Positions 22,060 to 34,399 of a DNA stretch of 39,445 bases are shown piece after piece. Source of the DNA: Candidatus Zixiibacteriota bacterium (GTDB lineage: Bacteria; Zixibacteria; MSB-5A5; WJJR01; JAJRUJ01). Under the pieces are notes generated by a model, which saw nothing but the letters and a program-made list of their open reading frames with translations, searched no databases and was not told the origin of the DNA. The position numbers and the translations under genes are program-made. The stretch's first letter is position 1. The number at the start of each line of letters is the position of its first letter. Where the stretch lies: positions 1-39,445 of the forward strand of contig JAJRUJ010000002.1 in assembly GCA_024277855.1 (NCBI GenBank), in the 5' to 3' direction.

Positions 22060-22104
22060 GTCACGTCCGGTTCCCAGGCAATGAAAGTGTTTCACGGAAC
22101 ATCT

Positions 22105-22134
22105 TTGATGTGTATAATCAAACTATGGTATGAT
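22105..22134 (+). promoter_or_regulatory. Promoter for the HEAT/cyclophilin-like gene
   Basis: -35 TTGATG (22105-22110), an 18-base spacer and -10 TATGAT (22129-22134) with an upstream TG, an extended -10. Transcription would begin near 22141, about 20 bases before the start codon. Confidence 0.65.
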
Positions 22135-22161
22135 GACCTGATGATCGGGAGGAAATATTCA

Positions 22162-24162
22162 ATGAGGAAATTTACAACTTTGGCGGTCTTGTGGTTGCTC
22201 ATCACCGCTTTGATCTCCGGTTGTGGCCTTTTCAACGGTGGGGCCAAGGAGAAAAAACTGGTTGATATTGCGATCTGGGAAGACCAGGCCACGCTGCATA
22301 ATTATGACCTCACCGGCTATCTTGCCGATTCCGATGTCAATGTCCGTCGGCAAGCGGCCATCGCCTGTGGGCGGGTCGGCGACACCATGGCCTATGAGGC
22401 GCTGGGACGCGCGCTCACCGATCGAGACAGCGTCGTTCGCGCCAATGCCGCCCTTTCGCTGGGATTCCTCCGGTATAAACCGGCGAAACCTTTGCTCTAT
22501 CAACAGATCAAACAAGAAAAAACCCCCTTTGCTCTGGAGTATCAACTCTGGGCGATCGGGCGGCTATACGGCAAGGAATATGCCGACAGTCTCCTCATAT
22601 TTCTCGAACATCCCGCCGCCAATATCAGAGGTCAGGCCGCTCTGACCCTCGGCCTTCTTGCTCAGAAATCTGCCGCCGACCAGGTGATCGAGTTGTTGGA
22701 CGACCCGGACTTGACTGTTCGTCGTCGTGCCGCCGCCGTGCTGACTCGGCTCGATCCGAAGGATCACGAAGAGAAGATATTTGCCAAAGCAAATGCTCTC
22801 GATCCACTGGTTCGCGGTCGGATGGCTCTGGCTCTGGGCGTAACTCGGGATCCCGTGTATTACCCGCGGCTGGTTGAGATGTTAGCTGATTCGAACCGGA
22901 GTGTTCGTCTCGATGCCGCGCGAGGTTTGCGTAGTTTGCGGGATACGACCGCGGTCGACGATCTCGGTGGTTTATTGAGCAGTGTCGACGATCCGGTCGT
23001 TCTGGGACTGCTGGTTGACGCAATGGGATTGCTCTGGCAGGAGAAAAGCGCACCCTACCTCAGACCGCTGAAGACATACCCGGATATCGGTGTGCGGATG
23101 AAACTCGCTCAGGCATTCCTGCGCAGTCTCAAGAAAGATTCTTTCGCTGATCTGGCGGATTTGGCCGACGATCCTGCCTGGCCGGTTCGGGCTTTACTGC
23201 CCGCCCAGTTGGAATATTTCGCCGGTCCGGGGTGGGGGCACACCGACGGACTCGTTCGGATATTCGCCAAATTGGCGAGCGACTCCGTTCCCGCGGTCCG
23301 GGCCAGCATCATTAAGTCGGCGATGCGTTTCGGTTCCGTCGTGCGGGGTGGGGTCATCGAGGCGTTGCATGACCCCGACGAATTAGTCCGCTATTACGCC
23401 ATTACGGTGTTGCCCTTCGTTGGCGGCGCCGCCTACCTCGATTCGACGGCGGCGTGGTATGACGAGCATCGCGACGATCCGAATCCGAGTTTCCGCATGG
23501 CGGTGCTGGCCACACTCGGCAATCTTTCGCCCTCGGTGACCATCGGCGATCTGCAGCGTAAGGTTTTTGGTTGGGGAATCAACGATCCCGACCGCCTGGT
23601 CCGGGCGTATACCGCAGCCGTGTGGCTGAAATTCCGCGAAGATCATCGCGACAGCATCGGTGTTTTCGACTCGCCGATCAACGCGTCGACATACGGTGAG
23701 TATTATCGTGATTATGACCCACCGCCGCGTATACGGTTTGTTACCAACCGGGGAGAATTTGTTGTCGAGTTATATGCCAACGAAACTCCGCGTACGGCCC
23801 ATCATATCCTGTCATTGGTGAACAAGGGCTTCTATGACGATTCGCCGGTGGGCCTGAACGATGACGGCTGGACCACATATCTTGGCGACCGGCGTGCCGA
23901 CAGTTGGGGACTTTCCGATGAGACCGTCCGTGATGAGATCACTCTTCGGCGAACGGAACGAGGATCATTGGTCATGCAACCTGTGCAGCGACATGATGCG
24001 CGCAGTCAGTTCGGCATCTGTCTGACCCCGCAGCCCTTGAACGATTTTACCCGCACGGTTTTCGGCAAAGTGGTTGAGGGGATGGATGTGGTCGATTTGC
24101 TTCGCCCGCTGGACACCATCGTCAAAGCGGAGGTCATTTCTACCGATATTGTGGCACGGTAA
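22162..24162 (+). CDS. HEAT-repeat lipoprotein with C-terminal cyclophilin-like domain
   Basis: A 666-residue exported protein. MRKFTTLAVLWLLITALISGC is a lipoprotein signal with the lipobox ISGC, and GGGAGGAA lies eight bases before ATG 22162. Residues about 45-500 are tandem HEAT/PBS-lyase-like repeats of roughly 30 residues, for example SDVNVRRQAAIACGRVGD and PDLTVRRRAAAVLTRLD. Residues about 524-664 resemble cyclophilin: FVTNRGEFVVELYANETPRTAHH, GSLVMQPV, SQFGICLTPQPLNDF and TVFGKVVEGMDVVDLL. The active-site region FHRxxxxFMxQGGD is not conserved (WTTYLGDRRADSWG instead). It may be a non-catalytic peptide-binding domain. A role as an envelope scaffold is inference. Confidence 0.85.
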   Translation: MRKFTTLAVLWLLITALISGCGLFNGGAKEKKLVDIAIWEDQATLHNYDLTGYLADSDVNVRRQAAIACGRVGDTMAYEALGRALTDRDSVVRANAALSLGFLRYKPAKPLLYQQIKQEKTPFALEYQLWAIGRLYGKEYADSLLIFLEHPAANIRGQAALTLGLLAQKSAADQVIELLDDPDLTVRRRAAAVLTRLDPKDHEEKIFAKANALDPLVRGRMALALGVTRDPVYYPRLVEMLADSNRSVRLDAARGLRSLRDTTAVDDLGGLLSSVDDPVVLGLLVDAMGLLWQEKSAPYLRPLKTYPDIGVRMKLAQAFLRSLKKDSFADLADLADDPAWPVRALLPAQLEYFAGPGWGHTDGLVRIFAKLASDSVPAVRASIIKSAMRFGSVVRGGVIEALHDPDELVRYYAITVLPFVGGAAYLDSTAAWYDEHRDDPNPSFRMAVLATLGNLSPSVTIGDLQRKVFGWGINDPDRLVRAYTAAVWLKFREDHRDSIGVFDSPINASTYGEYYRDYDPPPRIRFVTNRGEFVVELYANETPRTAHHILSLVNKGFYDDSPVGLNDDGWTTYLGDRRADSWGLSDETVRDEITLRRTERGSLVMQPVQRHDARSQFGICLTPQPLNDFTRTVFGKVVEGMDVVDLLRPLDTIVKAEVISTDIVAR

Positions 24163-26176: not shown

Positions 26177-27601
26177 GTGTTTGACTATTCTCATGGATCG
26201 GAAAAACGTTCAGACCGTCGCCTGCAAACCGAATATGCACTCGAATTTTGCCTGACCGAACAAGACCGGCTTATTCCCGGACATACTGTGGATTTATCTG
26301 TCGGTGGTTTGCGTCTGTTCACTACCGAGAAAATTCCCGTCGCCGCCGATGTCGATGTCCGTCTGTCTGTCGGCGAACCGCCGCTGATTCTCGAATTCTC
26401 CGGCCGCGTGGCCCATGTTTCCGAATCCGGGGAAGACGGATATCTTGTCGGGTTGCGCTATACGAATATTGACACAAAGACCCGGGCGATGCTGGATGAA
26501 CATCTCAAATCGATTGACGTTATTGCATTGTTGTCGGTGATGGCGGATAAGAAGGCCTCCGATCTGCACCTGGTTGTCGACCACCCGCCGATGTACCGTA
26601 TTCAGCAAGAACTGCTCCCGCAGGGTACCGAACAACTTTCGGCTGAGCGGGTTCGCCGAATGATTTATTCGGTCATGGATTCCGAACAGGCGGCCCAACT
26701 GCGCCGCCGTGGCGAGATCACTTTTGCGCTGACGGTTTCCGGTGTCGGTCGCTGGCGGGTAAATGTCCATCGACAGCAAGGTCGGATCGAGGCTGTTTAC
26801 CGTGCGATTAATGATGAAATCGTTTCACTCGACCGCCTCGGTCTCCCGCCCCAGGTCACCGAACTGGCACGCACTCCCGACGGGCTGGTTATCGTTGCCG
26901 GGGGAGGCGACAGTACGACCCTGACAGCGATGATCGATCTGATCAACGGCGAATCCCGCAAAGTGATCGTCACGCTGGAAGACCCGATTGAATTTGTCCA
27001 TCAGGGGAAAATGTCTGTCATCAAGCAGCGGGAAATCGGCAGCGATATCCGGTCTTTCGCCGATGGGCTGAACAACATTTTACGGCTGGATCCCGATGTC
27101 ATCGTCATCGGCGAAATCCGGGATTGCCACACCCTCTCGGCCGCCCTGAAAGTGGCCGACAGCGGACGGCTGGTCCTGGCCTCGTTACCGGCGTCGAATA
27201 CTATTCAAGCGGTCAATCGTCTACTCGGAATGTATCCGCCTGACCAACGGCCGGGAATCGCCGTCGGGCTTTCCGGCACATTGCGTGGGATTATTGCTCA
27301 ACGGTTGATTCCGCGCGCCGACAGATCCGGGATGGTCGTGGCCACCGAGATTCTCCTCGCCAATTCGGCGGTTCGGGCTGTAATCCGGGAGATGGAAATT
27401 CATGAAATCCCCAAACTGATCTTGGCGGAATCACCGGTGGGCATGCACAGCATGGATTCATCCCTGTGGGACCTTGCCGCCCGTGGCTTAATCACAATCG
27501 ATACCGCCCGCGCCCTTGCTGAGGAGCCGCTGGCATTCGAAGGTGTGCCTGATGAGATTGGTGAGCATCTCCAGGCAAACCCTCAGCCGATTGTGGTCTG
27601 A
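26177..27601 (+). CDS. PilZ domain fused to a PilT/PilB-like ATPase with altered P-loop
   Basis: 474 residues. The N-terminal PilZ domain (about 1-110) has the c-di-GMP motifs RSDRR and DLSVGG. Residues about 115-440 resemble PilT: KASDLHLVVDHPPMYRI, the Walker A region, TLEDPIEFVHQ (Asp box), IKQREIGSDIRSF, and Walker B DPDVIVIGEIRD at 305-316. The Walker A site reads VAGGGDSTT (240-248). The usual GPTGSGKSTT is three residues shorter here and its Lys is Asp245. The His-box TLHTN is SLPAS. ATP hydrolysis is therefore doubtful. A c-di-GMP-sensing non-catalytic partner of a pilus motor is a reasonable inference. GTG 26177 follows GGAGGG. No pilus genes are adjacent. Confidence 0.88.
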   Translation: MFDYSHGSEKRSDRRLQTEYALEFCLTEQDRLIPGHTVDLSVGGLRLFTTEKIPVAADVDVRLSVGEPPLILEFSGRVAHVSESGEDGYLVGLRYTNIDTKTRAMLDEHLKSIDVIALLSVMADKKASDLHLVVDHPPMYRIQQELLPQGTEQLSAERVRRMIYSVMDSEQAAQLRRRGEITFALTVSGVGRWRVNVHRQQGRIEAVYRAINDEIVSLDRLGLPPQVTELARTPDGLVIVAGGGDSTTLTAMIDLINGESRKVIVTLEDPIEFVHQGKMSVIKQREIGSDIRSFADGLNNILRLDPDVIVIGEIRDCHTLSAALKVADSGRLVLASLPASNTIQAVNRLLGMYPPDQRPGIAVGLSGTLRGIIAQRLIPRADRSGMVVATEILLANSAVRAVIREMEIHEIPKLILAESPVGMHSMDSSLWDLAARGLITIDTARALAEEPLAFEGVPDEIGEHLQANPQPIVV

Positions 27602-31478: not shown

Positions 31479-32801
31479 ATGTCTGCTAAATTCCTGCGCA
31501 ATCGTGGTTGGCTGGTCTTTTATGATCCTGCGGGCTATACCGGCCTGCCGCTGATATTTAAGGGGTTTCTGATTTTCGGCATTGCCGTGATTGCCGGTGT
31601 GATGGCCTACTATACGCAGGCGGTAGTCGGCCAGTTGCAAATCGCCGACCGCCGGATGGCCAATACCTACGCCGAGCAGTGGAAACGCGCCGTCGAAACG
31701 CAGTCGGAGGAGGTTACCGGTTTCCTCTTTGACGAAATTATTCGTCAGCGTTCATTCCCCCTGGTGGTCACCGACCGGGAGGACAATCCGCTCCACTGGC
31801 GCGACTTGCCGGATATTGCCGATTCCGATTCGACATCCACACCTGCTGCTGTCGAAAAAGTGCGTAAGATCATGCACACGATGGATAAGTCCTATCCGCC
31901 GGTGCCGATTCTCTACGAGGGAGAAATTCTCCATTATTTACACTACGGCAACTATCGCTTGATCCGTGACCTCCAGTTGCTGCCGTTTTTCGAGGTCGGG
32001 CTGGTTGTCTTACTCCTGATCATCGCTTACATCGGGTTTCGCAATCTCAAACGGGCGGAACAGCGGTATATCTGGGTCGGCATGGCCAAGGAGACCGCGC
32101 ATCAACTCGGGACTCCGTTGTCTTCGTTGTTGGGCTGGTTGGAGATCATGCGCGAAAAAGACCGCCGGGGAGAAATTGAGGTCAAGCTCGAAAATGGTCT
32201 CGGTCTGTCCGATATCGTGGATCGGATGCTGGCCGACACCCATCGGCTCGAACAGGTCGCCAACCGCTTCGGTCTGATCGGCTCCGAACCGACCCGGTCG
32301 GTCGTCGATCTCTGTCAGGTCGTGACGGAGACCGTCGAGTATTTCCGGATCCGTCTTCCTTTCAAGGGAAAAGGGGTGACCATTACCGCCGAATGTGCCG
32401 GACCGGTAGGTGCGCTCATCAACACCGAATTGATCGGCTGGGTCTTGGAAAACCTGATTAAAAATGCGCTGGAAGCGGTTGACTCCCGCACCGGCAAAGT
32501 TACCGTGGCGTTGGCCGAAAACCGTGACCGACACGTCGCCATCGTCCGCGTGATCGATGACGGTCGCGGAATTCCCTCCGCACAAAAGAAAAAGATATTT
32601 TCACCCGGCCACACGACGAAGAAACGCGGTTGGGGCCTGGGTTTAACCTTGTCGCGGCGCATTGTTTCTGAATATCACGGTGGGCGGATCTATCTCGCCG
32701 AAAGCACGCCTGACCGGAAAACCGAGTTTGTCGTCGAACTCCCGGCGGCAACCGAACAATTCGAGGCGGGCAAACAATCCGGCGGACATGAAGTACCATA
32801 G
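31479..32801 (+). CDS. Two-component sensor histidine kinase, PorY-like
   Basis: 440 residues. One membrane helix at about 27-46, an extracytoplasmic sensor segment, and a second helix at about 170-190 (FFEVGLVVLLLIIAYIGF). The H-box has phospho-acceptor His208 in GMAKETAHQLGTPLSSL, a form I know from Bacteroidetes kinases such as PorY. The ATPase domain has ENLIKNALEAV, VIDDGRGIP and GWGLGLTLSRRIV. The PorX-like gene follows by 35 bases, so these are probably cognate. The signal sensed is unknown. Confidence 0.9.
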   Translation: MSAKFLRNRGWLVFYDPAGYTGLPLIFKGFLIFGIAVIAGVMAYYTQAVVGQLQIADRRMANTYAEQWKRAVETQSEEVTGFLFDEIIRQRSFPLVVTDREDNPLHWRDLPDIADSDSTSTPAAVEKVRKIMHTMDKSYPPVPILYEGEILHYLHYGNYRLIRDLQLLPFFEVGLVVLLLIIAYIGFRNLKRAEQRYIWVGMAKETAHQLGTPLSSLLGWLEIMREKDRRGEIEVKLENGLGLSDIVDRMLADTHRLEQVANRFGLIGSEPTRSVVDLCQVVTETVEYFRIRLPFKGKGVTITAECAGPVGALINTELIGWVLENLIKNALEAVDSRTGKVTVALAENRDRHVAIVRVIDDGRGIPSAQKKKIFSPGHTTKKRGWGLGLTLSRRIVSEYHGGRIYLAESTPDRKTEFVVELPAATEQFEAGKQSGGHEVP

Positions 32802-32836
32802 TCGACTGTGGTGGCAACCGGATGAAAGGTGGAACA

Positions 32837-34399
32837 ATGAAACCGGATGGCAAGGTCATCCTTTGGATCGATGACGAGATCAATCTTCTTGAATCGCATA
32901 TGATGTTTTTGCGCGAACGCGGTTATATCGTTGACGGGGCGACCTCCGGCGATGAGGCGATCGAGATGATTGCGGAAAATCGATACGACTTGGTCCTGCT
33001 TGACGAAATGATGACCGGACGCGACGGCCTGTCCACCCTCGAGGAACTCAAGCAGATTAAACCCAATCTGCCGGTAGTGATGGTCACCAAGTCCGAAGAA
33101 GAGGACTTAATGGAGCAGGCAATCGGCAAGAAGATCGACGATTACCTGACCAAGCCGGTCAACCCCTCCCAGGTTCTCTCCGTAGCCAAGCGAATCCTCG
33201 ACGCCGGCAAGATTCGCACCGAACACCTGGCGCGGCAATATGCCCAGGAGATCGGCCGGATGCGCAACGATCTTTCCGGCCCGATGGAATGGGCGGACTG
33301 GATCGATGCCCATGTCCGCCTTTCCCAGTGGGACATCGAAATCGACCGTTTCCGCAATCTCGGCCTGGAGGAAATTCACAAAGAGCACCAGCGTGAATGG
33401 ACGGCCGAGTTCGGCAAATATGTCGAACGGCACTATCTTGACTGGATCCATGACAGCCCCAACCGGCCGCCGCTCTCGACTGACGTTGTCGAACGCTGGG
33501 TTGCCCCGCACCTGAAAGCCGGGCGGCGCGTGTTCTTTTTTGTTATCGATTGCATGAGTCTCGATCAGTGGCTCCATATCGAGCCGGAAGTCGCTCAATT
33601 TTTCAATGTCACCCGCGATCACTATTTCTCGATCCTGCCGTCGGCTACCCCATTCTCGCGCAACGCGATTTTTTCGGGTCTGTTTCCCGCCGATGTCAAA
33701 CGTCTCTACCCTGAACTTTGGCAGGTTGGGGATAAGGACGAATTTTCCCGCAACCGACTCGAACGACGGTTGCTGGACGAACAGCTGGCCCGACTCGGTA
33801 TCCGGTTGAAGCCCGAAGCGAAATATGTCAAAGTGCTTGAGCAAACAGAGGGCGAACGGCTGGCCCGTAAAATCGGCGGTTATCAGAGTACCCCGCTATT
33901 GTCGGTTGTTTATAATTTCATCGATAACCTGACCCACGGCCGGTCAGAATCCGAATTGTTGAGTGAATTGGCTCCGGACAAAGGCGCGTTTCGCGATCTG
34001 ATGAAAACCTGGTTTACCAATTCTTCCTGGTTCAAGGTTCTGCGGTATCTCTCAAGACAGGATTGCGTTGTGGTGGTTACCACCGACCATGGCAGCATTG
34101 TCGGCTCGCGGGGGACGGTTGCGCGGGGCAAAAAAGATACCTCAACCAACCTGCGTTACAAATATGGTGACAACCTCAGAGGTGAGCCGAAAGAGTCGAT
34201 GTTTATCCGCGACCCCGACGAATACCGTTTGCCGAGATTTACCATGTCGACGACATATTTGCTGGCCCGGGAAGATTTCTATTTCGTCTATCCGACTCAG
34301 TTCAACGAATATCAACGCCGGTTTGCCGGGACACTACAGCACGGCGGAATCAGTCTCCCTGAAATGGTCTTGCCGGTGGCCACCCTCGAACCAAAATGA
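32837..34399 (+). CDS. porX: Response regulator with PglZ/alkaline-phosphatase-like output, PorX-like
   Basis: 520 residues, near the length of Porphyromonas PorX. The receiver (about 1-120) has IDDE, phospho-acceptor Asp56 in LVLLDEMMTGRDG and the DYLTKP lysine. A helical linker leads to a PglZ-type phosphatase-fold domain. Metal and nucleophile motifs are VIDCMSLDQW (Asp238), ILPSATPFSRNAIFSG (Thr271), DNLTHGRSE and VVTTDHGS. PorX controls type IX secretion in Bacteroidetes and hydrolyses oligonucleotides; the same role here is inference. ATG 32837 has AAAGGTGG five bases upstream and is preferred over ATG 32822. Its stop overlaps tsaE. Confidence 0.88.
   Translation: MKPDGKVILWIDDEINLLESHMMFLRERGYIVDGATSGDEAIEMIAENRYDLVLLDEMMTGRDGLSTLEELKQIKPNLPVVMVTKSEEEDLMEQAIGKKIDDYLTKPVNPSQVLSVAKRILDAGKIRTEHLARQYAQEIGRMRNDLSGPMEWADWIDAHVRLSQWDIEIDRFRNLGLEEIHKEHQREWTAEFGKYVERHYLDWIHDSPNRPPLSTDVVERWVAPHLKAGRRVFFFVIDCMSLDQWLHIEPEVAQFFNVTRDHYFSILPSATPFSRNAIFSGLFPADVKRLYPELWQVGDKDEFSRNRLERRLLDEQLARLGIRLKPEAKYVKVLEQTEGERLARKIGGYQSTPLLSVVYNFIDNLTHGRSESELLSELAPDKGAFRDLMKTWFTNSSWFKVLRYLSRQDCVVVVTTDHGSIVGSRGTVARGKKDTSTNLRYKYGDNLRGEPKESMFIRDPDEYRLPRFTMSTTYLLAREDFYFVYPTQFNEYQRRFAGTLQHGGISLPEMVLPVATLEPK

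Follow-up and report, generated by a model that had tools for sequence, protein, structure and literature searches.

Is a PilT-type motor that is joined to a PilZ domain and altered in its ATP-binding loop a working regulatory protein, or a motor gene on its way to being lost? This question is raised by one gene in the window, the whole stretch of 39,445 nucleotides analysed here, which is an entire contig of the 3.07 Mb genome of a Candidatus Zixiibacteriota bacterium.

Domain organisation and ATP-site motifs

The gene has the sequence GGAGG upstream of its GTG start and encodes 474 amino acids (Table 1). A sequence-only reading of the DNA had described a PilZ domain fused to a PilT-like motor in one chain, and the profile matches confirm this. 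The PilZ domain scores 48.7 bits against PF07238 (gathering cut-off 22.5), residues 119-384 match the Pfam family T2SSE (PF00437) with an E value of 3.7e-31, and the protein reaches 349.8 bits against the PilT/PilU family profile TIGR01420 (cut-off 319.1). PilZ and T2SSE were the only domains found in the Pfam scan of the protein, in which the MshEN/T2SSE_N domain was absent. The nearest solved structures are PilT proteins, with Geobacter PilT4 being the best. An AlphaFold2 model, obtained with an alignment of 26 related sequences, has a mean pLDDT of 89.2, and its top fold match is PilT4 (TM 0.90 normalised to PilT4). The two-domain PilT fold is predicted with confidence. Since the rows of the alignment are mostly intact PilT proteins, the model speaks for the compatibility of the sequence with this fold and not for the harmlessness of the short loop. 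The protein resembles the PilT and PilU type IVa pilus retraction ATPases (TIGR01420; 6ojx, 3jvv, 9n32) in the two-domain motor fold, the Asp box and Walker B, and differs from them in the added N-terminal PilZ domain and in the loss of Walker A and the His box.

Table 1. Coordinates of the PilZ-PilT fusion gene and of its encoded domains and motifs in the window
Feature	Position	Strand	Remarks
PilZ-PilT fusion gene	26177..27601	+	GTG start, 474 codons plus stop
PilZ domain, residues 9-110	26201..26506	+	Pfam PF07238, E 1e-12
PilZ RxxxR motif (R11-R15), intact	26207..26221	+	alignment with homologues
PilZ DxSxxG motif (D39, S41, G44), intact	26291..26308	+	alignment with homologues
PilT-type motor, residues 117-451	26525..27529	+	NCBIfam TIGR01420; PilT proteins are the best PDB matches by sequence and by fold
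Degenerate Walker A loop VAGGGDSTT, residues 240-248	26894..26920	+	shortened by 3 residues; K->D at 245
Asp box TLEDPIEF, residues 266-273, intact	26972..26995	+	alignment with homologues
Walker B region RLDPDVIVIGEIRD, residues 303-316	27083..27124	+	catalytic Glu 313 kept; Q304L, F310V changed
Degenerate His box DSGRLVLASLPAS, residues 328-340	27158..27196	+	both histidines lost: H331R, H338P

The two PilZ motifs listed in Table 1 are those that contact c-di-GMP (PMC7288161). In the motor, the loop VAGGGDSTT stands in place of VAGPTNVGKSTT. In the alignment, GPTNVGKST of all seven Zixibacteria homologues becomes GG---GDST, which no longer contains the pattern GxxxxGK[ST]; the P-loop is three residues short and its Lys is replaced by Asp, as the sequence-only reading had it. 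The His box had been read as SLPAS. This is correct, and the change extends further than had been noticed, as the His of the preceding GHL has been replaced too: ETGHLVLTSLHTS of the seven same-phylum homologues is replaced by DSGRLVLASLPAS, giving GRLVLASLPAS against GHLVLTSLHTS, with GRLV...LPA at the place of GHLV...LHT. Walker B and the Asp box had been reported to remain, and both do. Walker B DPDVIVIGEIRD is intact, TLEDPIE and E313 are kept, and the acidic residues of both boxes are retained.

In P. aeruginosa PilT numbering, K136 is replaced by Asp, E219 by Asp, T220 by Ser, H222 by Arg and H229 by Pro. E204, whose replacement by Ala abolishes twitching in P. aeruginosa (PMC6858323), is kept, and so are the invariant arginines (R239 in the same numbering; 81, 83 and 98 in Geobacter numbering). 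The P. aeruginosa PilT interface residues D31, K58, R123, D242, E258 and R294 are not conserved across the PilZ-PilT fusions and are therefore uninformative here. The retention of both catalytic acidic boxes, the Asp box and Walker B, would agree with ATP still being bound or hydrolysed through a non-canonical P-loop. However, this is highly improbable, given the Asp in place of the phosphate-binding Lys, the three missing loop residues and the absence of both His-box histidines; H229A alone abolishes twitching in P. aeruginosa (PMC6858323).

The fusion family and the direct orthologue

In the searches of genome contigs, matches were found with an alignment as the query and none with a single protein. 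Full-length PilZ-PilT fusions are present in 8 of 132 Zixibacteria genomes, the class and phylum searches giving identical genomes. The 384 sampled Omnitrophota genomes yielded several dozen full-length matches; 31 Omnitrophota fusion sequences were read, among them one or two that are truncated. The viral contigs searched gave no match. All 39 fusions cluster in a tree that also includes unfused PilT, but at a weak node (0.55); the Zixibacteria group is firm (1.0).

The intact Zixibacteria and Omnitrophota fusions have a domain order identical to that of the window protein. Unlike it, they keep GK[ST] in every case read, namely in seven out of seven other Zixibacteria fusions and in 31 out of 31 from Omnitrophota (about 38 proteins from two phyla). 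A conserved clade sharing the altered P-loop, which the sequence-only reading had suggested looking for, was not found: among the fusions read from the 132 Zixibacteria and 384 Omnitrophota genomes searched, there is no second genome with a lost Walker A. The loss is a one-off within the fusion family as read, which leaves no way to demonstrate that the altered state is conserved.

In many Omnitrophota fusions it is the Asp and His boxes that are altered: Arg or Lys replaces the Asp of the first (LERPIE, LEKPIE), FHA or LHA replaces LHT in the second, and the fusion L144 has the same replacement of His by Pro as the window protein. In the unfused Omnitrophota PilTs that were read, Walker A, the Asp box and LHT are all unaltered. 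The changed boxes possibly reflect a more general tendency of the fusions towards altered catalysis. An altered Asp box (LERPIE, LEKPIE or LEHPIE) was read in the Omnitrophota fusions L127, L128, L135-L144, L152-L154, L157 and L158, in most of which LHT is replaced by FHA, LHA or similar and Walker A is intact. At another Omnitrophota locus (L164:2900-5125), the gene adjoining the PilZ-PilT fusion encodes a pyridine nucleotide-disulphide oxidoreductase (Fer4_20, Pyr_redox_2) and a ketopantoate hydroxymethyltransferase in a single chain.

One of the intact fusions is found in G001, the nearest relative of the host genome. Its contig C37 is syntenic with the window over about 17 kb, with the shared gene order pyrR, pyrB, pyrC and nth, followed further on by a metallo-beta-lactamase-fold gene, the PilZ-PilT gene, a polysaccharide gene, serS, a histidine kinase and a response regulator. 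The G001 protein is fully canonical (GPTNVGKST, SLHTS). The synteny indicates that the window gene is the direct orthologue of an intact motor gene and not an old paralogue. The sequence-only reading had itself taken homologues with an intact GKS P-loop as a sign that the window gene is a decayed copy; by that measure, with the syntenic orthologue among them, it is a derived copy of an active motor. A sequencing or assembly error in the P-loop was also considered and is thought unlikely, because several of the altered codons require at least two base changes, the reading frame is uninterrupted and synteny with the nearest relative is preserved.

Two further arrangements were observed in the window. 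The histidine kinase gene (31479-32801) adjoins a gene (32822-34399) whose product joins a receiver domain of the response regulator type to a PglZ domain, a PorX-like arrangement, and both genes are conserved in G001. The 693 aa product of the gene at 22081-24162 combines, in a single polypeptide, HEAT-repeat-like matches with a peptidyl-prolyl isomerase-like match at the C-terminal end.

In the window and in G001 alike, the fusion gene is flanked by the metallo-beta-lactamase-fold gene and, downstream, by the polysaccharide biosynthesis gene. No pilus operon surrounds the fusion gene where its neighbours were read (the window, G001 and other genomes), and in other genomes the fusions sit among varied genes, outside pilus operons where examined. 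Such surroundings would fit a protein whose PilT part is a structural platform for the PilZ sensor and whose output is not pilus retraction but, for example, envelope polysaccharide synthesis, the function of the next gene downstream. We consider this explanation unlikely. The neighbours differ in other Zixibacteria and in Omnitrophota, so that no partner is conserved across the family, and PilC-type platform proteins are present in nine of nine fusion-bearing genomes tested.

The pilus genes to be expected in the same genome under the sequence-only reading are indeed there. A normal pilus motor locus on the host contig C43 contains genes for a PilS-like kinase, PilC, PilT, PilB, Roadblock, Arf-like and TPR proteins, and a second PilB-like gene lies on contig C75. 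The genome also has three GGDEF matches and one further PilZ match besides the fusion. The arrangement at the C43 locus (L042), where a TPR protein, an Arf-like GTPase and two Roadblock proteins accompany PilB, PilT and PilC, is reminiscent of a polarity module of the MglA/MglB type beside the pilus motors. The second PilT paralogue, which is PilU-like and lies on contig C71 (L003 / L043:7969-9009), contains one in-frame TAA (AVNTIVP*FEELNLP), where G001 has AVNTTVPSFSELNLP; the portion after the stop is 82% identical to G001. The TAA is either a recent nonsense change or an assembly error.

Rate and pattern of change on the window branch

The window fusion shares 56% identity with its G001 orthologue, whereas PilB, PilT and PilC share 81-84% between the two genomes. 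Its branch length is 0.546 versus 0.287 for the sister, while the corresponding values for two PilT paralogues are 0.10/0.09 and 0.16/0.15. At sites fixed in the outgroups, 43 changes were counted on the window branch and 13 on the sister branch (p 7e-5), and the acceleration is seen in every domain including PilZ. These rates are in line with relaxed selection on a gene on its way out, the motor being dispensable in this lineage, the ATP site being the first part to go and stops having yet to appear. That the window copy alone has lost Walker A among the fusions read also agrees with decay, and the in-frame TAA in the PilU-like paralogue of the same genome may hint at a loosened demand for retraction motors. 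We regard decay as possible, though not as the probable outcome, in view of the following observations.

The 474 codons contain no stop or frameshift, and the single gap relative to the sister within the motor domain is in frame. Several of the lost catalytic codons carry second hits (at least two base changes), which implies that the loss of the ATP site is old. If the neutral distance since the loss is set to 0.2, a stop-free frame has a probability of 0.006, and with shorter distances the fit to the lost codons is worse; this clock is rough, as it uses nine codons only, which were chosen because they had changed. Conserved-site replacements outside the two boxes are more conservative than under neutrality at every distance tried (P 0.0016 or lower), whereas those within the Walker A and His boxes look neutral. 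Change is enriched in Walker A and the His box, with 10 of 20 sites against 34 of 153 elsewhere (p 0.011, the boxes having been picked after the alignment was viewed); pooling all four motifs gives no significant enrichment (p 0.29).

A wholly neutral window branch was rejected: omega = 1 is excluded with p 1.6e-6, and the branch is not different from the background, although the branch omegas are rough, synonymous sites being saturated (branch lengths near 10 or more). With such saturation, a period of function and any decay that came after it are averaged in the omega result. We read the pattern of replacements as constraint that was probably kept on the fold and the sensor after the ATP site had been let go. 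A mixed history, in which the gene was functional for most of the branch and has been decaying lately, is a further possibility.

A candidate c-di-GMP-responsive pseudo-ATPase

The explanation that we put forward, at about an even chance, is that the window protein is a pseudo-ATPase specific to this lineage and responsive to c-di-GMP, and that it descends from an active PilZ-PilT fusion motor. The findings that count for it are the intact PilZ motifs, the lost Walker A and His box, the predicted PilT fold and the intact direct orthologue, together with the open frame, the conservative replacements, the box enrichment, the omega result, and the motor locus and GGDEF genes of the host. The fast evolution of the whole protein and the position of the gene outside a pilus operon count against it. 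The pseudo-ATPase proposed in the sequence-only reading thus stands in part: the constraint continuing after the loss keeps the idea alive, while the homologues with an intact GKS P-loop weigh against it.

In the proposed mechanism, the protein would have lost the binding and hydrolysis of ATP in the usual way, and its PilZ domain would still bind c-di-GMP. It would remain in contact with the pilus machinery, whether it forms a separate ring or mixes with the ordinary PilT of the genome. Its part in retraction would be that of a scaffold or brake gated by c-di-GMP and not that of a power source. The V. cholerae PilT variant K136A serves as the precedent for such a role. This PilT with a dead ATP site keeps a structural role in retraction: it supports PilU-driven retraction when it replaces PilT, and it disrupts the native motor when overexpressed (PMC6821130). 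This variant is engineered and has no c-di-GMP sensor; the window protein, in contrast, occurs naturally and its His box is lost as well. V. cholerae PilT is listed as c-di-GMP non-binding in a review table (PMC10333796).

The combination of a c-di-GMP receptor domain and a pilus or secretion motor in one chain is shared with MshE of V. cholerae and PilF of T. thermophilus. Their receptor, however, is the MshEN/GSPII domain and their motors belong to the extension/GspE group, in contrast to the PilZ domain of the window protein, which has no MshEN match. In the FimX-PilZ-PilB complex of Xanthomonas citri a PilZ-fold protein likewise acts on a pilus motor (PMC8389850). A literature search, with most subscription papers outside its scope, found no paper that describes a PilZ-PilT fusion or uses the terms 'PilZ-PilT' or 'PilT-PilZ'. 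Pfam lists 221 PilZ architectures (PMC7288161), and the PilZ-PilT architecture may already be among them.

Only tentatively, as a somewhat doubtful extension to the whole family, can the PilZ-PilT fusions be seen as a c-di-GMP-gated branch of retraction motors that has repeatedly traded catalysis for regulation, with a natural dead PilT subunit or ring that brakes or scaffolds retraction. What suggests this is that the Asp and His boxes are changed in Omnitrophota and that the window protein has lost its ATP-binding loop altogether. Described cases of direct c-di-GMP input to pilus motors, as far as we found them, concern extension-type ATPases and their partners (MshE, PilF and FimX-PilZ-PilB). 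A family with PilZ covalently joined to PilT would give c-di-GMP a direct route to a motor of the retraction type; in a member that is naturally ATP-dead, the structural role of PilT would be separated from the power stroke.
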